Assembly (NCBI GenBank): GCA_027592925.1
Contig: JAQCJO010000012.1
Span: forward strand, 1-32,023
Direction of reading: 5' to 3'
From: Actinomycetota bacterium
Lineage (GTDB): Bacteria; Actinomycetota; Acidimicrobiia; Acidimicrobiales; Ilumatobacteraceae
DNA length: 32,023 bases
Below are positions 7,489 to 22,896 of the stretch, one piece after another; the stretch's first letter is position 1; every line of letters starts with the position of its first letter. The notes below the pieces were generated by a model. That model was given only the letters and a program-made list of their open reading frames with translations, did no database searches and was not told where the DNA came from. A program made the translations under genes and the position numbers.

Positions 7489-8775
7489 TTAGTCGGCGAT
7501 GACCCGCAGGAGGCCACCCACATGCGTGACCACGTCAAGTTTTTTCAATTCGCTAATGCAAGCTTGCATTGCCGCCTCACCTGCATTGTGTGTAAGAAAC
7601 ACGAGTCGTGCGCCGTGGCCAATGCCGTCTTGCTCGGCCGCACGGATGCTCACATTGTGACGAGCAAAAACACCAGTAACTGCGTGCAATACGCCTGGTT
7701 TGTCGGCAACCTCGAGTGGCAACAAATACTCACACGATGTGTCGGACATTGGCTGCAACTTTGGAGCACTCAACACTCCGAGTGTTGCATGCGCGCCCTT
7801 GTTGAGATTAATTGATGCGTCGATCACGTCGCCGAGTATCGAAGATGCCGTTGGGTCACCGCCCGCGCCGCGACCATAAAACATGAGTGAGCCCGATGCT
7901 TCGCCGTCGACCACGACCGCATTAAATGCTTCACGTACCGACGCAAGAGGATGCTGCATCGAAACGATTGCAGGGTGCACGCGTACCGACACCGCACCAG
8001 ATGCTTTGTCAAACTCGGTGACGCCCAACAACTTGACTGCATAACCCAATCGCTTTGCAATTGCAATGTCTGCTGCCGTGATCTTGGTGATGCCTTCGCT
8101 ATACACGTCGCCCGCAACAACGTTGCAACCAAATGCGATACTCGCGATGATCGAAATCTTTGCCGCGGCATCCAGCCCCTCGACATCGGCTGTCGGGTCA
8201 CTTTCTGCATAACCAAGTTGTTGCGCGCTGGCCAGTGCGTCTTCATAACTCGCGCCGTCTTCGCTCATCTTGGTGAGAATGTAATTTGTAGTTCCATTGA
8301 CGATGCCGAGCACTCGCCTGATTGGCTCGCCACGCAAACTTTCGCGCAATGGACGAATAAGTGGAATACCTCCGCACACTGCAGCCTCAAACAACAAGTC
8401 GATGCCTGCATTGTCGGCTGCCGCAAACAACTCTGCGCCATGGGTCGCGATCAATGCCTTGTTGGCTGTGACGACAGGCTTGCCATTTGACAAAGCCTTC
8501 AAGATCAAGCCGCGGGCTTGGTCGATGCCGCCCATCACTTCAACGACAAGGTCGACGGTTGGGTCGTTGACCACAAACTCTGCATCGGTTGTCAGCACAT
8601 CTGCAGCCAGCGAATTTTTATGCGCATCAATGTTGCGAACCGCCACTCGTGCAATCACAAGTTGCACGCCACTGCGGGCGGCAATTGCGGAAGCTTGTTG
8701 CTTGACGAGCCGTACAAACGCGGCACCAACCGTGCCATGGCCAATTACTCCGATGCGAACTTGAATTGCAGCCAT
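7489..8775 (-). CDS. hom: Homoserine dehydrogenase with C-terminal ACT domain
   Basis: Reduces aspartate semialdehyde to homoserine with NAD(P)H, at the branch toward threonine and methionine. The Rossmann motif GVIGHGTVGAAF begins near residue 9. NGTTNYILTKM (about 165-175) and GLDAAAKISIIASIAFG are the conserved catalytic-domain signatures. An ACT domain covers about residues 350-428 (LPLEVADKPGVLHAVTGVFARHNVSI), which usually gives threonine feedback inhibition. The start ATG at 8775 is directly preceded by GAAGGA, and TAGCGT ends exactly 6 nt before the ATG, so it may be read from its own leaderless promoter as well as from the argS-lysA transcript. It lies 33 nt after lysA and 12 nt before thrC. 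Confidence 0.97.
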   Translation of the reverse strand: MAAIQVRIGVIGHGTVGAAFVRLVKQQASAIAARSGVQLVIARVAVRNIDAHKNSLAADVLTTDAEFVVNDPTVDLVVEVMGGIDQARGLILKALSNGKPVVTANKALIATHGAELFAAADNAGIDLLFEAAVCGGIPLIRPLRESLRGEPIRRVLGIVNGTTNYILTKMSEDGASYEDALASAQQLGYAESDPTADVEGLDAAAKISIIASIAFGCNVVAGDVYSEGITKITAADIAIAKRLGYAVKLLGVTEFDKASGAVSVRVHPAIVSMQHPLASVREAFNAVVVDGEASGSLMFYGRGAGGDPTASSILGDVIDASINLNKGAHATLGVLSAPKLQPMSDTSCEYLLPLEVADKPGVLHAVTGVFARHNVSIRAAEQDGIGHGARLVFLTHNAGEAAMQACISELKKLDVVTHVGGLLRVIAD

Positions 8776-8787
8776 TCCTTCACGCTA
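8776..8787 (-). promoter_or_regulatory. Candidate leaderless promoter / SD of hom
   Basis: On the minus strand TAGCGT (8782-8787) is followed by GAAGGA and then the hom ATG. The first fits a -10 box with transcription starting at the start codon; the second is an SD-like sequence, but with no spacer to the ATG. I see no convincing -35. Confidence 0.4.
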
Positions 8788-8808
8788 TTGGCTCTACGGC
8801 CCTGATTT

Positions 8809-10083
8809 CTAGCGAATATCGAGCCTGGTCAGATCTTCATTGGTTTCACGGCGTACAACAAGACGGGCTTTGCCATTGCTCACAAAAACCACTGGAGGTC
8901 GAGTCACTTTGTTGTAATTAGACCCCATCGAATGACCATATGCACCCGTTACCGGAGTCGCGAGCACATCACCGATAGCAAGGCCGGAAGGCACAAGTGC
9001 CTCATTGATCAACACATCGCCGCTTTCGCAATGCTTGCCAACAAGTCGCACAACTTCGGTGCGATTGGCATTGGCTCGTGCTGGCAAAAATGCTTCATAA
9101 CCGCTGCCATACAACACAGGTCGTGGATTGTCACTCATGCCGCCATCGACTGCAACATACGTGCGCACACCAGGAATGTTCTTAATAGTGCCAACCGAAT
9201 ACAACGTGACAGCAGCGGAAGCAACGATGGATCTGCCTGGCTCGACAAACACCGTGATGCCTTTGTTGAGATGAGCCGTTGCGCTGTGCAAGTGACCAGC
9301 CCACTCGGTGATGGTCGGCGCATTTTCCGACTCGACATATGCAACGCCAAGTCCACCGCCAAGCGTGACTTCGTCTATGGCGAGTTCGTTTGCCAAGTCA
9401 ACCATGATTTTTGCAGCCAGCGTAAAGTTTTCGGCAGCAAACACATTTGACCCGATGTGACAATGAATGCCAACGAGTTGCACCGACGAAGAATCACGTG
9501 CGCGTTGAGCAGCCTTGCGAGCATCTCCATTACCAAGATTGAAACCAAACTTCGAGTCGTCCTGCCCTGTCGACACAAATTCGTGCGTGTGCACATACAC
9601 GCCAGGCGTTATGCGCAACTGCACACGCGGTGCTGGCAGGCCTTGAGCATGCAGCGCATCCAGACGATCGAGTTCGTCAAAATTGTCTACAACGATGTGT
9701 CTCACGCCAGCAGTGATGGCCTGACGTAATTCATCTTCACTTTTGTTGTTGCCGTGCATCACACAGTGACTTGCCGGTACACCCGCATTGAGCGCCACAA
9801 ACAACTCGCCACCTGTAGCAACATCGAGCAACAAATCTTCTTCATGTGCGAGGCGCGCCATTGCAGTACACAAAAATGCTTTTGTTGCATACACCACTCG
9901 TTCACGACCAAAAGCTGTTACCGCTTCGCGACAACGAGCACGCAGATGCTCCTCGTCATACACAAATACTGGTGTGCCAAACTCGGCTGCAACATCTGTC
10001 AGTGCGCATCCACCAACACTCATCCGACCATCGGGATCAATGACAGCATTATCTGACAACAAGTGCTTGGCAACTACAGTCAC
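8809..10083 (-). CDS. lysA: Diaminopimelate decarboxylase
   Basis: Decarboxylates meso-diaminopimelate to lysine with PLP, the last step of lysine synthesis. The fold-type III barrel carries the PLP lysine in YATKAF (K68), the glycine-rich LGGGLGVAY phosphate loop, and the active-site CESGD motif near the C terminus. The frame extends upstream to 10152 inside argS. The real start is more likely the GTG at 10083: it overlaps the argS stop by 4 nt (GTGA) and has GGAG 5 nt upstream. This gives 424 aa, normal for the family, and argues for translational coupling to argS. The argS-lysA pair is conserved in actinobacteria. Confidence 0.96.
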   Translation of the reverse strand: MTVVAKHLLSDNAVIDPDGRMSVGGCALTDVAAEFGTPVFVYDEEHLRARCREAVTAFGRERVVYATKAFLCTAMARLAHEEDLLLDVATGGELFVALNAGVPASHCVMHGNNKSEDELRQAITAGVRHIVVDNFDELDRLDALHAQGLPAPRVQLRITPGVYVHTHEFVSTGQDDSKFGFNLGNGDARKAAQRARDSSSVQLVGIHCHIGSNVFAAENFTLAAKIMVDLANELAIDEVTLGGGLGVAYVESENAPTITEWAGHLHSATAHLNKGITVFVEPGRSIVASAAVTLYSVGTIKNIPGVRTYVAVDGGMSDNPRPVLYGSGYEAFLPARANANRTEVVRLVGKHCESGDVLINEALVPSGLAIGDVLATPVTGAYGHSMGSNYNKVTRPPVVFVSNGKARLVVRRETNEDLTRLDIR

Positions 10084-13753: not shown

Positions 13754-14698
13754 ATGAGAATCATTCCCAAAATACTTATTGGAATTTGTCCTGCCCTGTT
13801 TGCTCTTTCCGCATGCTCATCCAGCGGCACCACAACTGCGGCAGATTCCGATCGGCCAACCGTTGTAGTCACCTACTCCGTGCTTGGCAGCATCGTGGAA
13901 CAACTTGTTGGCGACGCCGCAACAGTGACCACTCTCATCCCAGACGGTCAGGACCCCCACGAATTTGAGCCATCGGCGAAAGACATCGAGTCATTAAACA
14001 ACGCGAGCATTGTTGTATCGAACGGTCTCGACTTTGAAGAAGGTTTGGAAGAGACACTCGAAAATGCAAAGACTGCTGGAGTCAGCGTCTTTATGGCTGG
14101 TGACCACGTCACCGTTCGCGAACTCAGCGATGAGGATAATCACGCCGACGAAGCAACTACGGACACGACTGTGCTTAAGGAAGAGGAACACGATCACGAA
14201 GCATCTGACCCACACCTGTGGCTTTCGCCTGCAGCGATGCTGGAAATGTTGCCAGAGCTTTCCAAAGCAGTTGGTGCCGCAATTGGTGCAGACCTCTCGG
14301 CGCAGTTGGAGACACTTGTTGCCGAACTGACCGCATTGGACTCCGAAATTCAAGAAATAATTGGTGGTATCAAGTGCGAGCTGGTGAGTGGGCATGACGA
14401 AATGGGTTACTTCGCCGATCGTTACGGTTGCGAAGTGATTGGCGCGATCATCCCATCGTTTTCAACCACATCGGAAGCGAGCGCCGGCGAACTTGCCGAC
14501 TTGAAGGCCGAAGTTGAATTGCACGATGTTAAAGCAGTTTTTACTGGCCTTGGAACATCTCCAGATGTTGCCGAACAACTTGCAACCGAATTGGGTGTGA
14601 AAGCGGTGACCCTGTCGACACATTTCCTTGATGGTGCGGAGACTTATCGGGAGTTTATGCTGCGAATGGTCAACCAAATCGCGGAAGCGCTCGGCTGA
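13754..14698 (+). CDS. znuA: Zinc (or manganese) ABC transporter substrate-binding lipoprotein
   Basis: Captures zinc outside the membrane and hands it to the ZnuB permease. The 314-aa precursor has a lipoprotein signal with lipobox LSAC (C21). The cluster A-I fold is marked by VTYSVLGSIVEQLVGD and DPHEFEPS. Metal ligands are likely H69 (DPHEFE), H154 (DPHLWLS) and H214 (SGHDEMGYF), with H290 or D293 near the C terminus as the fourth. An acidic, His-containing loop (about 125-150, with EEEHDHEA) is the zinc-collecting loop typical of ZnuA and argues for zinc over manganese. The start codon has a -10 box 6 nt upstream and Zur-like boxes on each side. AztC-type naming is an alternative. Confidence 0.9.
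   Translation: MRIIPKILIGICPALFALSACSSSGTTTAADSDRPTVVVTYSVLGSIVEQLVGDAATVTTLIPDGQDPHEFEPSAKDIESLNNASIVVSNGLDFEEGLEETLENAKTAGVSVFMAGDHVTVRELSDEDNHADEATTDTTVLKEEEHDHEASDPHLWLSPAAMLEMLPELSKAVGAAIGADLSAQLETLVAELTALDSEIQEIIGGIKCELVSGHDEMGYFADRYGCEVIGAIIPSFSTTSEASAGELADLKAEVELHDVKAVFTGLGTSPDVAEQLATELGVKAVTLSTHFLDGAETYREFMLRMVNQIAEALG
13755..13769 (+). promoter_or_regulatory. Zur-like operator 2, within the znuA start
   Basis: TGAGAATCATTCCCA is the reverse complement of operator 1 except at the central base. It overlaps the start codon and first codons of znuA, directly downstream of the predicted transcription start. Confidence 0.6.
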
Positions 14699-14725
14699 AC
14701 CGCCGCGTTCACATATCCTTGATGT

Positions 14726-15619
14726 GTGGAATGGTTTGACAACAACGTGTTCATCGAACCATTCCTCAACAATGAGTTTCTGCGCTACGCGCTAGCCGGA
14801 GGAATACTCGTTGCGATTACGTGCGCCGTTGCCGGAACTTTCGTGGTGTTACGTGGCCTTGCATTTGTTGGTGACGCGCTCGCACACGGCGTGCTTCCCG
14901 GAATAGCGACAGCGCTACTTTTAGGCGTGTCTGGAATCGTTGGCGCTGCAGTAGGCGCAGTGGCGATGATGGGTGGAGTGAGCCTGGTAACTCGTCGCTT
15001 TCGACTTTCGGGTGACACGGCAATCGGCTTGTTATTCGTGGGCATGCTGGCACTTGGTGTCATCATTACCTCGCGAAGCGATGCATTCGTTGGCGATCTC
15101 ACACGCATTTTGTTTGGTGAACTGCTTGGTGTCAGCCGATCAGATTTGTTGTCGCAACTGTGTGCACTTGCCCTGGTTGGCTTAATCGCTTTCATTGGCC
15201 GTCGCCCGTTTCTGTTGCTTTCTGTAGACGAGGGGCTTGCTCGCACCTCAGGTTTCTCCATTCGCCTCTTTCACAATGCAATGCTGACCATGGTTGCCAT
15301 CACTGTCGTTGCCAGTTTTCAAACGGTAGGAACACTGTTGGTGCTAGGTATGTTGATTGCACCCGCTGCAACTGGTGCGCTCTTTGCGCGACGAATCTCC
15401 AGCATGATGACTATTGCCGCCCTTGTCGGAACTCTTTCTACATATATAGGACTACTGCTCAGCTACCACTTTGACATTGCCGCTGGCGCAACCATCGTGT
15501 TTACGGCCGTTATGTTCTTTGCTCTGACCGCAGTGTTGACCGAAATACGGAAGGCACTCAGCAAACCGAGCGATGGCGAACACGAGCATCCTCACGCACA
15601 CGGGCGCGTACACATCTGA
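14726..15619 (+). CDS. znuB: Metal ABC transporter permease
   Basis: Membrane channel of the zinc importer. The 297-aa protein has about eight to nine hydrophobic helices and the ABC-3 family signature region (AGTFVVLRGLAFVGDALAHGVLPGIATALLLG), where the His and Asp line the metal path. The tail HEHPHAHGRVHI is His-rich and may bind zinc on the cytoplasmic side. The start is a GTG at 14726, 27 nt after znuA. TATCCT ends 6 nt before it, so a secondary leaderless promoter is possible. The ATG at 14722 is in another frame. Its stop overlaps the znuC start by one base. Confidence 0.92.
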   Translation: MEWFDNNVFIEPFLNNEFLRYALAGGILVAITCAVAGTFVVLRGLAFVGDALAHGVLPGIATALLLGVSGIVGAAVGAVAMMGGVSLVTRRFRLSGDTAIGLLFVGMLALGVIITSRSDAFVGDLTRILFGELLGVSRSDLLSQLCALALVGLIAFIGRRPFLLLSVDEGLARTSGFSIRLFHNAMLTMVAITVVASFQTVGTLLVLGMLIAPAATGALFARRISSMMTIAALVGTLSTYIGLLLSYHFDIAAGATIVFTAVMFFALTAVLTEIRKALSKPSDGEHEHPHAHGRVHI

Positions 15620-16356
15620 TGGCTGCACTAACCGCTGCAGTGCACTCTCCGATTAGTGCCGATCACCTCTGCGTTGGATATGGCAAACGCCCTGTCGTCG
15701 AAGGAGTAACTCTCGACATGCAGCCGGGTGAACTCTTGGTGCTCATTGGCACAAATGGTTCGGGCAAATCAACATTACTCAAGACTCTTGCAGGACTCAT
15801 CAAGCCAGTGCATGGGGACTTACATTTGCTTGGCGAACATGCTGGGCAATTACCGAAGCGCGTTGGTTATCTTCCACAACATCCAGTGTCGTCACACACA
15901 CTTCCATTATGTGTGCGCGACATGGTTGCTATGGGCCGCTATGCACATCTCGGATTAGTGAAGCACGCAAGTGCACATGATCGAGAAATTGTTGAAGAGT
16001 CGATGGTGCGCGTCGGCATTGATGCTCAGGCTGCTCTGCCTATTCGAGATTTGTCTGGCGGCCAACAACAACGCACCCACTTGGCACAAGTGCTTGCCCG
16101 CCAAGCAGAAGTGCTTTTGCTTGACGAACCAACTGCCGGCCTTGACCTCAACGGTCGCAAACTCGTTGCGGATCTTGTTTCAGCCGAGCGCGCACGCGGA
16201 GTCACCGTGGTGATGGCGACACACGAACTGAGCGATGCCGAGCAAGCGACATCGGTGATGTTGCTCGCCCAGCGAGTTGTATCTATGGGCCCACCCAATG
16301 TTGCTTTGCGCGATGAATACCTACGCGAATGCTTCGGTTTTACTCAGCCTCACTGA
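15619..16356 (+). CDS. znuC: Metal ABC transporter ATP-binding protein
   Basis: ATPase that drives the zinc importer. Walker A GTNGSGKST (44-52), a Q-loop near QHPVS, the ABC signature LSGGQQQR, Walker B VLLLDEPTAG and the switch His in MATHELSD are all present. The 245-aa length is normal. The ATG shares its A with the znuB TGA stop, so translation is coupled. Its last 17 bases overlap the end of the convergent methyltransferase gene. Confidence 0.95.
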   Translation: MAALTAAVHSPISADHLCVGYGKRPVVEGVTLDMQPGELLVLIGTNGSGKSTLLKTLAGLIKPVHGDLHLLGEHAGQLPKRVGYLPQHPVSSHTLPLCVRDMVAMGRYAHLGLVKHASAHDREIVEESMVRVGIDAQAALPIRDLSGGQQQRTHLAQVLARQAEVLLLDEPTAGLDLNGRKLVADLVSAERARGVTVVMATHELSDAEQATSVMLLAQRVVSMGPPNVALRDEYLRECFGFTQPH

Positions 16357-17352: not shown

Positions 17353-17673
17353 TCAAAAAGCTGGCGGTGCTGGCGGGCCGTACTCATTCATGTCGGGATC
17401 ACTTTGCTGAAGAGCAAAGATAAAACCGACAATCGGAATAATTGACCACCAACCTCCACGGTTGGTGTCGTGCATACGGCGCCAGCCAACAGCAATTGAC
17501 GGAATGATCATCGCTATTGAAAAGAGAGCACCGATTGTTGAAAAAATTGCCGACGAAAGGTTGGCAGCAATAAGTACAAACAATTGCCAAAACCAATAGG
17601 CAGAGCGAGAGGATCTGCCATTGAAGTTTGCATAGTTTTTAAACCCAGACTTAATGGCGGTTTGAAAATTCAC
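17353..17673 (-). CDS. DUF805 family small membrane protein
   Basis: Inner-membrane protein of unknown function. The 106-aa product starts FQTAIKSGFKNYANFNGRSSRSAYWFWQLF, the typical DUF805 opening, with two to three hydrophobic helices and the family marker GWRRMHDTNRGGWW. The C-terminal tail is proline-rich. The GTG start overlaps the stop of the acyl-CoA dehydrogenase by 4 nt (GTGA), so it is coupled to it, although no functional link is known. Confidence 0.9.
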   Translation of the reverse strand: MNFQTAIKSGFKNYANFNGRSSRSAYWFWQLFVLIAANLSSAIFSTIGALFSIAMIIPSIAVGWRRMHDTNRGGWWSIIPIVGFIFALQQSDPDMNEYGPPAPPAF

Positions 17674-18914
17674 TCTTTGTCGCCCTGTGGCTTTGGCTCT
17701 TTTGGAAGCCCAAGCACACGCTCACCCACAATGTTGCGTTGAATCTGGCTTGTGCCACCCCAGATGGTTTCAGAGCGCGAGAAGAAGAACGTCGACATCA
17801 TCGAGCTGACTGGGTACCCATCGCGGCGCTTGTCGCGCAATGCACCTGGCCAGTTGCCATCTGCTGGACCAGCATTGATCAACATCGAGTTGGCACCATT
17901 GATGTCGAGTGCGAGTTCCATTGCACGTTGGTGCATTTCGCTCCAAAACATCTTGTTGCTTGCACCAAGTGCAAGTACGCCCATGTCTTTCTTGTTTTCG
18001 AGTGTTGCACTCAACGAGCGCAGACCGTTGTAACGCAAGATCTGAATTTTGGAGTAAAACTGCATCAAGCGTTGACGAATGGTGTCGTCATTGATTGATC
18101 CATTTTCTTTTGCTGCAGCCGACATCAAACGAAACTCTTCTTCAAATCGGCGATAGCCAGTGGTCGCACTCATGCCGCGCTCAAACGCGAGAGTGCTGTT
18201 GGCTACCTTCCAGCCATTGTTGACTCCACCAACCACGTTGTTCTTCGAGCAACGCGCATCGGTAAAAAACACTTCACAAAACTCTGCTGTGCCGTCTGGC
18301 TGCACAATGCCGCGCACTTCAACGCCCGGCTGACGCATTGGCACCAACAAGTAGGTGATGCCCGCATGCTTTACCCCCGACGTGTCGGTGCGCGTAAGCA
18401 AGAAGCAATAGTCGGCGTGGTGACCACCAGTTGTCCAGACTTTTTGTCCGTTGATCACCCACTCTTCACCGTCGAGCACTGCAGTGGTCTTGAGGCTTGC
18501 CAAATCACTGCCGCTGTTTGGTTCGCTAAAGCCTTGGCACCAGCGCATCTTGCCATTCAAAATCTGTGGCAGAAATTCCTTTTTTTGTTCTTCTGTGCCC
18601 CATTGCAACAACGTTGGGCCAACAAGTGTGGCACCAAAGAAATCTGCGCGCATTGGAGCCTTCGCATTTGCAAACTCTTCTGCCAGCACCACACCCTGCA
18701 ATGTTGACAAACCTTTGCCACCGTATTCGACTGGCCACGTTGCACAAATCCAGCCACCTTCAAACAACTTTGTTGGCCAATCTTCGTTAAATGCTTTGCG
18801 ATCAGCCGACGACATCTCGAAACCTTTGTCGAACCAACCCTTTGGAAGGTTTGTCTTCAGCCATGTCTGTACTTCGGTTCTAAAGGCTTCTGCCTCGGGG
18901 GTGTATTCGATCAT
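17670..18914 (-). CDS. Acyl-CoA dehydrogenase (FadE-like)
   Basis: FAD enzyme that introduces a trans-2 double bond into acyl-CoA, passing electrons to ETF (encoded at 26730-28485). The order is an N-terminal helical domain, a beta domain with WCQGFSEPNSGSDLASLKT and WVINGQKVWTTGGHHADYCF, and a C-terminal helical domain ending IWGGTSQIQRNIVGERVLGLPKEPK. I start at the ATG at 18914 (MIEYTPEAEAF), giving 414 aa. The frame extends to 19133 but would cross the divergent antiporter gene. CAGAAT-AGAGGG lies directly before the ATG. Substrate chain length cannot be told. Confidence 0.93.
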   Translation of the reverse strand: MIEYTPEAEAFRTEVQTWLKTNLPKGWFDKGFEMSSADRKAFNEDWPTKLFEGGWICATWPVEYGGKGLSTLQGVVLAEEFANAKAPMRADFFGATLVGPTLLQWGTEEQKKEFLPQILNGKMRWCQGFSEPNSGSDLASLKTTAVLDGEEWVINGQKVWTTGGHHADYCFLLTRTDTSGVKHAGITYLLVPMRQPGVEVRGIVQPDGTAEFCEVFFTDARCSKNNVVGGVNNGWKVANSTLAFERGMSATTGYRRFEEEFRLMSAAAKENGSINDDTIRQRLMQFYSKIQILRYNGLRSLSATLENKKDMGVLALGASNKMFWSEMHQRAMELALDINGANSMLINAGPADGNWPGALRDKRRDGYPVSSMMSTFFFSRSETIWGGTSQIQRNIVGERVLGLPKEPKPQGDKE

Positions 18915-18950
18915 CCCTCTATTCTGCCCGCTCACGAGCACTCCAGTCCA
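18915..18950 (-). promoter_or_regulatory. Candidate leaderless promoter of the acyl-CoA dehydrogenase
   Basis: On the minus strand TGGACT (18945-18950) and CAGAAT (18921-18926) are 18 nt apart, and CAGAAT ends 6 nt before the ATG. The 13-bp core around CAGAAT is shared with the yqeY start region. Confidence 0.45.
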
Positions 18951-19005
18951 AGCGCACGTCACGCCAACGCAGTACGGCGTTAACAGAACCGTGACAATTG
19001 ACTCG

Positions 19006-19017
19006 TATAATTGATGC
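19006..19017 (+). promoter_or_regulatory. Leaderless promoter of the antiporter-GlnD fusion gene
   Basis: A perfect TATAAT (19006-19011) ends 6 nt before the ATG. A TTAACA at 18980-18985 is 20 nt upstream, longer than usual, so the -35 is uncertain. No Shine-Dalgarno precedes the ATG. Confidence 0.6.
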
Positions 19018-21660
19018 ATGTTCAATGTACTTCTCGGTAGTGCTTCCGAGACGCTCGATATTGGGCGCATTCTGCTGGATCTGACAATCATTTTGATCGT
19101 GGCAAAAGCAGCCGCCGAGGTCTCTGAACGCATTCACGTGCCAGCGGTTATTGGCGAAATTTTTGCCGGAATCTTGATTGGACCATCAGTCTTGGGTCTC
19201 GTTAATACCGGCGACATGCTGTTCTTTCTCGCCGAACTTGGCGTCATCTTGCTGCTCATCCAAGTTGGGCTCGAAACCGACATTGTCGAGCTCAAAAGTG
19301 TTGGTCGCGCCAGCCTCTTGGTGGCAATCATCGGAGTCGCGTTGCCAATGGCACTTGGCTTTGGAGTCGGCTCAATGCTTGGTGAATCAGTTAATACTTC
19401 CCTCTTTATAGGTGCAACACTCACGGCGACATCAATTGGCATCACCGCTCGAGTGTTTGGAGACTTGCGAGCACTTGCAACTATTGAGGCGCGCACAGTT
19501 CTTGGTGCAGCAGTTGTCGACGACGTGCTCGGCCTGATCATTCTCACAGTCGTCACTCGTATTGTCGAGCAAGGCAGTGTGGGCATTGGCACGATTGCAT
19601 CAACCATCGGACTCGCAGTTGGTTTTCTTGCCGTCACGAGCACCGTTGGTTTCACCATCTTCCCCCAACTCTTTGCACGTATCACACAAGTTGCGCGTTC
19701 AACATCCACAGTGTCTGTGGTCGCAATCGGTATCGCGCTTGGTTTTTCGGTGCTTGCCGAGAAAGCACACCTCGCGCCGATCATTGGCGCGTTTGTGGCC
19801 GGTCTTGCTTTGCGACGCATCACTACACACGAACGCGTTGAACGCGATGTTTCATCACTCGCGCAAATATTTGTTCCAATCTTTTTCTTAAACATCGGCA
19901 TCTCAACCAACATCCGTGCGATGGCAGATGCACGAGTAATCGGAGTCGCATTATTGATTTCGGTTGTTGCAGTCGTAAGTAAAATTGCAGCAGCATTCGG
20001 GGCAATTGGATCACGCGGCGACAAGTGGACAATTGGTTTCGGAATGTTGCCTCGCGGCGAAGTCGGTCTAATTTTTGCGAGCATTGGTCTCAGTGTTGGG
20101 GCATTCTCAGAAGAGCTCTACGGGTCAGTACTTGTTGTCGTGCTCATCACAACACTGATCGCGCCGCCGTTACTGCGATGGAGACTTGGAACCCAAGCGC
20201 AGGCTATTGAAGACTCAACCGCTCTTGCAATGAGACCACTTGAAGGTTGGGTCACGAACATTGATGGGCAAATAGTTCTCAATGGCGCTCCCCCTGTACG
20301 TTCACTTGTAGAAATTGGTTTAGCCTCAGCGTCGCTCGCAATAGATGCACAACCAAGTAGCCAATTACTCGACTGGTTTGCTCTCCATCGCAACGCAACA
20401 TTGAGCTGGGATGATGATGCAACGATTGGTTTGCTGCGTGTGTTGCGACATGGTTCGGCCCGTTCGTGGAGATTCCTAGAAACCATCGGTTTCGTTCAGC
20501 GCGCGCTCCCTGAAGTGTCTGAGGCAATGGCTGCACGAGCAAGCGATTCAACCGAACTTGACCCAACACACTCGTTGCAGTTCCCCACTGTTGAAGCAAT
20601 TTGTTTAACATCACACGCAAGCACTGACGATCTCGTGCTTGCAGCATTTGCAAAAGATATTTCAGATTCTGGAGCCTATGGGCAAGGCGCAATTGCGCGA
20701 CTCGGGCTTGATCTCGCGACTAGTAAGTCGGTTTTGATGCTTCTTGAAGGTTCACAACTCTTACGTAACATTGTGCAAAGCGAACCGTTGCAGATCACGC
20801 CACGATTACTCGCACAAATTGCAAATCATCTCAAGAACCCTCTGCTAGTTGAGCAATGTCGTCAGCTTGTTAGCGCACGACAAGATTTGAGTGATACTCA
20901 AAATTTGGCATTAATTGGCATAGTTGCCGATGTTCAAGAAGTACTCGCACACCCAGACCTCGTTGATTCTGAATCAAACACGCTTGTAGAGAGTCGGTTG
21001 CAGGCAGCACTTGCACTCACTACAGATGATTCAATTCGCGCACGCATCACCCATGCGCCAGCAAGTTACGCCCTTACTCACTCTCCAAAACAGATGCTTG
21101 ACCATGCACTACTTGTCGAACCGATACCACCTTCGGGTGATGCACGAATTGTTGTGTCGCCTACGCCGATAAACGATCAGTGGTTGGTCAACATTGCGTG
21201 CCGCGACAGGTCTGCATTACTCGCACGACTTTCTGGTGCGTTGTCGTCACTCAACCTCAACGTAATCAATGCCGAAATTGCTACATGGGCAGATGGCGCA
21301 GTGCTCGACATATTTACAGTGCAATCAGCAGTCGAGCCACAACTGCGTGCTCTTACCGATGCAGTGCAGCAATCTCTACAGTCGCGAAACGTCAAGACTT
21401 CTGAGAGTCCATACGAACTAACCGTTCAGCTTGATCATTCGGCACACCCATGGCACTCGATCATGCGTGTAGAGGGCGAAGACCGCACTGGTCTGTTGCG
21501 CGACATCGCTGCGACACTCACCAAACTCAAGGTTGTCATCCACCATGCGCAAATTGGCACCGACCAAGGTCTTGTGCACAACCTGTTTGAGATATCCGAT
21601 GCGCATGGCAGAAAACTTTCCGAACAAGCGTCAAACAAGATCATTCGCGCGCTTCGCTAG
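19018..21660 (+). CDS. CPA2 cation/proton antiporter fused to a GlnD-like regulatory tail (degenerate HD + two ACT domains)
   Basis: An 880-aa membrane protein. Residues 1-385 form the antiporter, about 12 hydrophobic helices with ILIGPSVLG, the ion-binding double Asp in AAVVDDVLGL (D168, D169) and GMLPRGEVGLIF. CPA2 relatives often continue into a TrkA/RCK domain with a nucleotide motif; here there is none. Instead residues about 440-645 follow the order of the linker and HD region of PII uridylyltransferase GlnD: LLRVLRHGSARSWRFLETIGFVQRALPEV is cut here to its GlnD-like features, then DPTHSLQF (H518), and AKDISD (546-550) where GlnD has an LHDIGKG-like motif. HD residues are lost (H to K546, RHH to RN584), so hydrolase activity is unlikely. 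Two ACT domains follow (about 722-790 with CRDRSALLARLSGALSSLNLNVI; 812-880 with EDRTGLLRDIAATLTKLKV). The GlnD nucleotidyltransferase domain is absent. Inference: ACT-bound amino acids gate transport. Confidence 0.88.
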   Translation: MFNVLLGSASETLDIGRILLDLTIILIVAKAAAEVSERIHVPAVIGEIFAGILIGPSVLGLVNTGDMLFFLAELGVILLLIQVGLETDIVELKSVGRASLLVAIIGVALPMALGFGVGSMLGESVNTSLFIGATLTATSIGITARVFGDLRALATIEARTVLGAAVVDDVLGLIILTVVTRIVEQGSVGIGTIASTIGLAVGFLAVTSTVGFTIFPQLFARITQVARSTSTVSVVAIGIALGFSVLAEKAHLAPIIGAFVAGLALRRITTHERVERDVSSLAQIFVPIFFLNIGISTNIRAMADARVIGVALLISVVAVVSKIAAAFGAIGSRGDKWTIGFGMLPRGEVGLIFASIGLSVGAFSEELYGSVLVVVLITTLIAPPLLRWRLGTQAQAIEDSTALAMRPLEGWVTNIDGQIVLNGAPPVRSLVEIGLASASLAIDAQPSSQLLDWFALHRNATLSWDDDATIGLLRVLRHGSARSWRFLETIGFVQRALPEVSEAMAARASDSTELDPTHSLQFPTVEAICLTSHASTDDLVLAAFAKDISDSGAYGQGAIARLGLDLATSKSVLMLLEGSQLLRNIVQSEPLQITPRLLAQIANHLKNPLLVEQCRQLVSARQDLSDTQNLALIGIVADVQEVLAHPDLVDSESNTLVESRLQAALALTTDDSIRARITHAPASYALTHSPKQMLDHALLVEPIPPSGDARIVVSPTPINDQWLVNIACRDRSALLARLSGALSSLNLNVINAEIATWADGAVLDIFTVQSAVEPQLRALTDAVQQSLQSRNVKTSESPYELTVQLDHSAHPWHSIMRVEGEDRTGLLRDIAATLTKLKVVIHHAQIGTDQGLVHNLFEISDAHGRKLSEQASNKIIRALR

Positions 21661-21693
21661 TTGTGCCGCCTCGCCAGCGAGCAGGCCATGCCG

Positions 21694-21705
21694 TAGAGTA
21701 TTTCC
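21694..21705 (+). promoter_or_regulatory. Leaderless promoter of the FrhB-like gene
   Basis: TAGAGT (21694-21699) ends 6 nt before the ATG at 21706. TCGCCA at 21671-21676, 17 nt upstream, is a weak -35 match. This suggests the gene is transcribed apart from the antiporter that ends 45 nt upstream. Confidence 0.5.
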
Positions 21706-22896
21706 ATGACCGTTACCGAAACAGCCCCTGCAGGACTCGAGCGCTGGACGCACCAGTGGAAAGAGCTGTACGAAGAAGTCATCAATACAGGCCTGTGCAC
21801 CGGATGTGCTGGCTGCGTTATTGCATGCCCATACGAAGTGATCGGCTACAAACACGAAGAAGGTCACTACAAGCCGTTCCACATCGAAGAAGAATTGGGT
21901 CTTGACAATTGTGGTCACGGCGAAAAGGGTTGCACCAGTTGCACACGAGCATGCCCCCGCTTTCGCACTTGGGAGCCAGAGGCCGACATGCAGTTATTTG
22001 GTCGGACGCGAAAAGACGATGAAATGTACGGCCAATACCGTCAGCTGCTCTTGGTGCGCGCAAGCGACAAAGAAGTCCACGAAAAAGGTCAAGACGGTGG
22101 CTTTGTGGGCGCGATGCTCATCTGGTTGATGAAGCATGACTACATTGACGCAGCACTGACCAGTTTTATGGAAGGCGACGGCACATCGTGGAAAGCGCGG
22201 CCGGGTTTGGCTCGCACCCCTGAAGAAGTGCTGCAAAGTTCGGGTAGTCGCTACACCTTTTCCGCAAACACACTGGCGATGAAAGAAGCACAAGAGGCAG
22301 GCATCAACAGACTCGCGTTGGTTGGAATGAGTTGTCAGTCATCAGCGCTTCCAATTATGTGGAAACGCAAAGTTGGCAAGATCGCCAAGCCATTCTTATT
22401 CAACATCGGGTTGTTGTGCTCCAAAACATTTGATGATGCAATCTTTGAAGAACTTTTCTTGGCCAAGTATGGCCTGAAAAAAGAAGAGATGGTCAAGATG
22501 AACATCAAAGGCGTCTTCCAGATTTGGATGAAGGACGGCGCATACCACGAGATTGATCTCAAGGAATGTCACCAGTGGACGCGCGAAGGTTGCAAGATGT
22601 GCCCAGACTTTGCTGCCGAACACGCTGATATCTCGACAGGTGGAATCGGAGAAGACAACGCATGGACACTGTGTGTTGTGCGCACCGAGCTTGGCGAAGA
22701 AGTGATGAACCGCATGATTGCCGACGGCAGCGTGATTGCTCGCCCGGCCGAGACTGATGCAACTGCAATGAAGTTATTGCGACTACTGAGCATCGTTAGT
22801 CGTCGACGCTGGCCCGAATTTGGCGACAAGAACCCAAGTGTGGGTGTGCCACCGCCGAAGAAAAAAGCTGACGGAACGGTCCCCGCGCCCCACTAG
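21706..22896 (+). CDS. Coenzyme F420 hydrogenase/dehydrogenase beta subunit (FrhB/FdhB) family iron-sulfur flavoprotein
   Basis: A cytoplasmic flavoprotein that in this family moves electrons between F420 (or NADPH) and iron-sulfur clusters. The 396-aa product starts with a two-cluster ferredoxin domain: C31/C34/C37/C41 (CTGCAGCVIACP) and C76/C79/C83 (CTSCTRACP) with C69. The FrhB domains follow, with GGFVGAMLIWLM, GMSCQSSALPIM, FNIGLLCSKTFDD and CKMCPDFAAEHADISTGGIG. The C-terminal tail is Lys/Pro-rich. It stands alone: no hydrogenase, formate dehydrogenase or glutamate synthase subunit adjoins it, so its partner is unknown. F420 use fits actinobacteria but is inferred from family. Confidence 0.88.
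   Translation: MTVTETAPAGLERWTHQWKELYEEVINTGLCTGCAGCVIACPYEVIGYKHEEGHYKPFHIEEELGLDNCGHGEKGCTSCTRACPRFRTWEPEADMQLFGRTRKDDEMYGQYRQLLLVRASDKEVHEKGQDGGFVGAMLIWLMKHDYIDAALTSFMEGDGTSWKARPGLARTPEEVLQSSGSRYTFSANTLAMKEAQEAGINRLALVGMSCQSSALPIMWKRKVGKIAKPFLFNIGLLCSKTFDDAIFEELFLAKYGLKKEEMVKMNIKGVFQIWMKDGAYHEIDLKECHQWTREGCKMCPDFAAEHADISTGGIGEDNAWTLCVVRTELGEEVMNRMIADGSVIARPAETDATAMKLLRLLSIVSRRRWPEFGDKNPSVGVPPPKKKADGTVPAPH

Follow-up and report, generated by a model that had tools for sequence, protein, structure and literature searches.

In most known cases, the coupling between nitrogen status and the balance of ions and pH runs through separate regulators, e.g., PII and PTS-Ntr proteins. The locus described here raises the question of whether such a link can be built into a single polypeptide, a membrane antiporter continuous with a tail derived from GlnD, and what this tail would sense. 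The window, i.e., the whole 32,023-nucleotide stretch of DNA analyzed, is a contig of a 1.66-Mb genome of 98% completeness.

Gene Architecture

The gene forms one uninterrupted open frame of 880 aa with the domain boundaries shown in Table 1. Near relatives contain full or near-full copies of the fusion with 85 to 90% identity, and the copies of other relatives show identities of 38 to 68%.

Table 1. Features of the fusion gene and the adjoining gap (positions in the window; residues of the 880-aa product)
Feature	Position	Strand	Description or basis
Whole fusion gene, 880 aa	19018..21660	+	NapA-type antiporter, linker, degenerate GlnD HD region, two ACT domains
Antiporter domain, residues 15-388	19060..20181	+	PF00999 E 5e-62; NapA E 1e-69; model compared with NapA 5bz2
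CPA motif positions 1-4, ATSI (residues 137-140)	19426..19437	+	Alignment of 42 fusion ORFs
Ion-binding aspartate pair D168/D169	19519..19524	+	Aligned with DD of NapA; invariant 42/42
K322, counterpart of the NapA TM10 lysine (CPA motif position 8)	19981..19983	+	Alignment
Short antiporter-tail linker, residues 389-404	20182..20229	+	Model confidence low here
GlnD-derived linker and degenerate HD region, residues 405-712	20230..21153	+	HHalign of the HD part
HD-motif remnant, K546 D547 replacing His-Asp	20653..20658	+	His lost 34/38 fusions, Asp kept 33/38
E577-G578-S579 at the GlnD R-H-H position	20746..20754	+	Alignment
ACT domain 1, about residues 718-785	21169..21372	+	Pfam ACT-like match; HHalign against GlnD ACT pair; model
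ACT domain 2, about residues 802-880, with DRTGLL ligand loop	21421..21657	+	PF01842; D822, G825; HHalign
45-bp gap, occupied by PII-Amt(-Amt)-PII genes in same-family relatives	21661..21705		Synteny

Antiporter Domain

The N-terminal half is a CPA2 antiporter of the NapA type according to sequence membership tests, which establish homology; transport activity is inferred. Pfam detects Na_H_Exchanger at residues 26 to 387 (E 5e-62), and NCBIfam gives a CPA2 model match. Among proteins of solved structure, the nearest is NapA (E 1e-69), the CPA2 Na+/H+ antiporter of Thermus thermophilus (PDB 4bwz/5bz2), with 38% identity across the whole transport domain. Compared with NapA 5bz2, the full-length model gives a TM score of 0.92 (target) and an rmsd of 2.5. 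In the alignment, the aspartate pair of NapA corresponds to D168/D169 and its TM10 lysine to K322. The two proteins have the fold, the aspartate pair, and the lysine in common; unlike the fusion, NapA carries no GlnD-derived cytoplasmic tail. The CPA2 assignment with a double aspartate had already been made in an initial annotation of the stretch and held by Pfam, NapA alignment, and fold.

Across an alignment of 42 fusion ORFs, in which a few genomes are represented twice, A137, T138, S139, D168, D169, and K322 are invariant (42/42), and CPA motif position 4 (residue 140) is a nonpolar Val or Ile in all 42. All eight CPA motif positions fit the Na+-type, electrogenic NapA pattern. Because of the pattern formed by residues 137 to 140, D168/D169, and K322 under the rules for ion type and electrogenicity by Masrati et al. 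2018 (PMC6181914), the antiporter is predicted to be Na+ selective and electrogenic, moving ∼1 Na+ out per 2 H+ in. Neither transport nor the ion has been shown.

The glutathione-gated K+ efflux systems KefB and KefC are similar in outline, as their CPA2 antiporter likewise carries a regulatory part in the cytoplasm that senses a ligand. They contain an RCK domain and no ACT domain, in contrast to the fusion, which gives no RCK/TrkA match in Pfam up to an E value of 10 and whose transport domain is nearer to NapA. The KefC match of the fusion is confined to the transport domain. With no RCK domain found, a Kef-type identity is rejected, and an RCK/USP-type tail is rejected by Pfam as well. The proposal in the initial annotation that the tail replaces the usual RCK control needs correction: no RCK domain is present in these searches, but RCK control belongs to the Kef antiporters, and NapA has no RCK tail. 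Other antiporters of the relatives bear unrelated tails, which appear USP-like by eye only.

GlnD-Derived Tail

The C-terminal tail is a homologue of the HD-ACT-ACT part of GlnD lacking the nucleotidyltransferase. NCBIfam detects UTase_glnD over residues 650 to 878 (E 5e-23), and the TIGR01693 score of the fusion, 81 bits, stays below the curated cutoff of 519. No nucleotidyltransferase domain is matched in the fusion protein by Pfam or NCBIfam, and the HD domain remains unseen by Pfam in every fusion scanned. In HHalign, profiles built from the HD regions of 35 fusions and of 15 true GlnDs match with 99.4% probability (E 1e-21, 202 columns), the ACT pairs of fusion and GlnD match at 99.8%, and a mismatched control reaches 0.3%. 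The structural model of the tail is confident (pLDDT 85), with two ACT folds after a mostly helical region; the placement of the tail relative to the membrane domain is uncertain in the full-length model (pTM 0.49). A Foldseek search of the tail against the PDB returns ACT matches and nothing convincing for the HD part, so that the HD homology rests on the profile comparison.

The HD active site is destroyed throughout the fusion family, as is evident from alignment with GlnDs. The His of VDxH is lost and the GDHS loop is deleted in all 38 fusions aligned. The HD-motif His is lost in 34 of these and kept in 4, with the Asp of the motif kept in 33; 36/38 lack the second His of HH, and 37/38 lack the Asp of ADxxATG. 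These catalytic residues are all kept in the 16 GlnDs of the class (16/16). The fusion is not a GlnD, although its tail descends from one, because both the nucleotidyltransferase and the HD active site were tested for and are absent. GlnD itself combines a nucleotidyltransferase with catalytic HD residues, in contrast to the fusion, which is without both and attached to a membrane antiporter.

The ACT domains of GlnD are regarded as glutamine sensors (PMC3173338). In the second ACT domain of the fusion, the ligand-loop residues D822 and G825 are each kept in 41/42 fusion ORFs, and W757 and A844 are nearly or fully invariant across the whole family. The loop glycine of the first ACT domain is replaced by Ala733 in the window's genus and by Ala in 14/42 fusion ORFs. 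Given this exchange, the first ACT domain might bind ligand differently; there are no binding data. Plant ACR proteins resemble the fusion in having ACT repeats of the GlnD type without the GlnD catalytic domains (PMC3173338) but have no membrane transporter attached.

Most of what the initial annotation stated about the tail held. The order linker, HD, ACT, ACT without a nucleotidyltransferase is confirmed by the profile-profile comparison with its negative control, and this similarity to GlnD, together with the lack of any RCK/USP domain, answers the objection that the tail might be of another type. K546 does replace the HD-motif His, and D547 remains. N584 had been placed at the RHH-type position, which fails, since the alignment puts E577/G578/S579 there; the loss of the motif still holds. 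The claim of a sensor rather than an enzyme holds family-wide for the dead HD site, and sensing remains inferred.

Distribution and Origin of the Fusion

The fusion occurs in 30 of 395 genomes sampled from the class, spread over many families, and a few of these copies are truncated or split. Three more strong matches in the class sample (G064, G075, and G079) are true GlnDs. A phylum-wide sample of 396 genomes adds two more fusions outside the class, both in family f83. A search for the same architecture in Acidimicrobiia, suggested with the initial annotation, therefore finds it in many families and, beyond this class, in a single family of a second actinobacterial class.

The full-length fusion ORFs number 37 after removal of redundancy. 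A branch with 100/100 support separates the fusion tails from the GlnDs, and the antiporter halves form one clade against eight nonfused antiporters (SH-aLRT of 97, quick tree). Pairwise distances of the two halves correlate (r=0.90, 666 pairs), with the tail diverging faster (mean distance of 0.62) than the antiporter (0.41). One old fusion event is apparently the simplest reading. A GlnD subtype of family f46 (L068, L070, and L071), a candidate tail donor by score, is rejected; the tree groups all GlnDs and singles out none.

Several variant forms accompany the full-length fusions. In genome G035 (L114, contig C183, about 7650 to 9083), the tail is encoded with no antiporter attached and immediately precedes a true GlnD gene; PII and Amt genes lie within a few kilobases, and the outer genes are the acyl-CoA dehydrogenase and FrhB genes that flank the fusion in the window. 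This standalone tail nests inside the fusion clade, and the antiporter was therefore lost or split off in G035. A single in-frame TGA at the linker splits the antiporter and tail ORFs of L061 (G168:C120), reflecting a sequencing error or real fission. The fusion ORFs L065 (G223), L066 (G160), and L063 (G142) end within the HD-like region and have no ACT domains, which may reflect frameshifts, errors in the contigs, or genuine loss. A 535-aa protein with a degenerate HD region and two ACT domains but neither antiporter nor nucleotidyltransferase occurs in another family of the phylum (L128, G476:C20:18105-18914), with no Amt or antiporter nearby.

An assembly error or frameshift joining two genes, named in the initial annotation as a possible refutation, is all but excluded. 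The stop between the halves in G168 and the tail alone in G035 could be read in its favor. Against it stand the 37 full-length ORFs, the single clade of each half, and the correlated divergence; the same full-length fusion recurs in dozens of independent genomes, far beyond chance, and the artefact is rejected on this ground.

Linkage to Amt and PII

Of the 33 genomes outside the window's genus that have the fusion, 22 carry an Amt gene, a PII gene, or both directly beside it, generally on the same strand. These genomes contain about two Amt genes each in about 3 Mb, and the chance expectation is therefore well below one adjacent case. Both fusions of the second class have Amt alongside. In 10/33 genomes, several of them in family f61, neither gene adjoins the fusion. 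PII genes near the fusion were found by tblastn, as greedy ORF calling missed PII in GC-rich contigs, and 29 of the 33 genomes have PII. The adjacent Amt mostly represents a longer subfamily with the motif YMVAFMDTxATIPTG and the twin His kept (L090-L105, L115, L119, L120, and L125), distinct from the Amt paired with PII elsewhere in the same genomes. This conserved linkage supports the nitrogen link independently. The initial annotation had proposed that ion flux is set by nitrogen status; the linkage agrees with the nitrogen part, and gating by a ligand, glutamine especially, is still inference. PII and Amt genes are often adjacent, as in the GlnK-AmtB pair (PMC3831643), and here both adjoin the fusion. 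In that pair, a separate soluble PII protein regulates the ammonium channel, unlike in the regulation proposed for the fusion.

Comparison of the window and L086-L091 with L106-L113 shows how the window's genus departs from this arrangement. Relatives of the same family have the order acyl-CoA dehydrogenase (reverse), fusion, PII, Amt, PII, and FrhB, followed by the next genes of the window. The window and eight relatives of its genus show acyl-CoA dehydrogenase, fusion, and FrhB with identical outer genes. The PII-Amt cassette was lost cleanly in the window's genus, and the fusion was retained.

Apparent Absence of PII and GlnD from the Genus of the Window

The genus comprises 23 genomes of free-living, small-genome actinobacteria. 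Family searches of the window's genome give no match to PII or PF08335. The latter domain occurs in GlnD and, as we infer from ORFs of about 950 aa that match it twice, in GlnE as well, so that GlnE is probably absent too. An Amt gene is located on another contig of this genome. None of the 23 genomes has a GlnD over the cutoff, the genus as a whole probably lacks GlnE, and 22 have no clear canonical PII, with one weak match in the remaining genome. In addition, G103 and G053 (96 to 97% complete) contain the fusion and Amt with PII undetected. Draft gaps can hide genes, but the concordance of 23 genomes makes them an unlikely whole cause.

The tail is under purifying selection in this genus. 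Values of dN/dS are 0.03 to 0.07 for the HD region, 0.07 to 0.11 for ACT, and 0.04 to 0.07 for the antiporter, with some dS near saturation. Persistence of the tail without PII favors direct small-molecule sensing, since a tail serving only for PII docking would not be expected to persist.

Proposed Mechanism and Alternative Explanations

The preferred reading, held by a modest margin, is a NapA-type antiporter set by a built-in, GlnD-derived amino-acid sensor. Architecture, homology, the single clade, the dead HD site, gene context, and purifying selection are shown; ligand identity, gating and its sign, the transported ion, and the purpose are inferred, without biochemical evidence. In this model, the two ACT domains would bind a small amino acid reporting nitrogen status, most likely glutamine, and the dead HD region would act as a scaffold relaying the ACT state via the linker to the transporter core. 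Nitrogen is proposed as the signal because the tail descends from GlnD ACT domains and the Amt/PII linkage recurs in two classes. The ancestral gene would have been clustered with that of an Amt ammonium channel and in many cases with PII. Such control could plausibly serve to keep pH and Na+ in balance as ammonium enters or nitrogen becomes replete: NH3 entry would raise the internal pH, and Na+/H+ exchange would bring protons in. The window's genus would have lost both the PII/GlnD machinery and the neighboring PII-Amt cassette while retaining the fused sensor. A bolder version, judged slightly less likely than not, sees a glutamine-gated Na+/H+ antiporter through which nitrogen status would directly control an ion gradient by means of a captured, catalytically dead GlnD sensor. 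This sensor would be the only GlnD-derived one remaining in a single streamlined genus after PII/GlnD loss, with nitrogen sensing moved from a regulatory cascade onto a transporter.

Four other explanations appear unlikely. The tail could be a PII receptor, in which the dead HD region, the handler of PII-UMP in GlnD, only binds PII or PII-UMP, so that the antiporter follows the PII modification state. PII genes adjoin the fusion in several same-family genomes, and the presence of PII in 29/33 fusion genomes outside the window's genus fits this idea. However, the window's genus keeps the whole tail under purifying selection with no GlnD over the cutoff and no clear canonical PII in 22/23 genomes (one weak), and G103 and G053 have fusion and Amt without detected PII. 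It is similarly doubtful that the tail senses another ACT ligand, an amino acid or metabolite, with a merely historical Amt link. ACT domains bind many ligands, sequence by itself does not reveal the ligand residues, and 10 genomes, including most of one clade, lack Amt or PII beside the fusion; descent from GlnD ACT domains and the Amt/PII linkage in two classes nevertheless point to nitrogen.

Alternatively, the transported ion might be NH4+ (or K+) instead of Na+, with the protein acting alongside Amt as a valve that releases ammonium. Some CPA2 proteins exchange NH4+ or K+, and Amt is a recurrent neighbor. This is improbable given the Na+-type NapA pattern of the eight CPA motif positions, with position 4 nonpolar in 42/42 (rules in PMC6181914), and would alter the ion, not the sensor idea. 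Finally, the tail could be a structural relic, aiding folding or dimerization without sensing. The dead enzyme site and the faster divergence of the tail (0.62 versus 0.41) agree with such a role, but there is little to recommend it in view of the nearly or fully invariant ACT2 ligand loop and W757/A844 family-wide, the low dN/dS of the tail, and the retention of the tail alone, beside GlnD, in G035.

Relation to Previous Work

The open-access literature searched contains no description of an antiporter with ACT/GlnD, with PII/GlnK, or with Amt and glnD, and nothing relevant on NH4+/H+ antiporters; subscription papers were outside the scope. This is consistent with the initial annotation, which knew of no described example. 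New here are the conserved Amt/PII neighborhood of the fusion and the cassette loss in the window's genus. The nitrogen-ion link seems to be built into one polypeptide and kept through a wide actinobacterial radiation, mostly beside ammonium channels, and by inference bacteria with the fusion probably tune membrane ion flow directly to the cell nitrogen level. The fusion isolates the HD-ACT-ACT module of GlnD from its enzyme, and lineages without PII and GlnD provide a natural experiment on this module acting alone. The system is compact and testable, consisting of a single protein with a predicted ligand and with transport as its readout.

Flanking Genes

The mechanical ORF of the acyl-CoA dehydrogenase (window 17670 to 19133, reverse strand) extends into the first codons of the fusion. 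The conserved dehydrogenase protein begins near 18914, divergent from the fusion gene, and the overlap is not required. On the other side, 45 bp 3' of the fusion and on the same strand, lies the gene for an FrhB/FdhB-type F420 oxidoreductase subunit (21706 to 22896, forward strand), a right-hand neighbor kept across the family. Farther upstream, positions 13754 to 16356 (forward strand) hold a likely zinc/manganese ABC uptake cluster of a His-rich binding protein, an ABC-3 permease (Pfam), and an ATPase.
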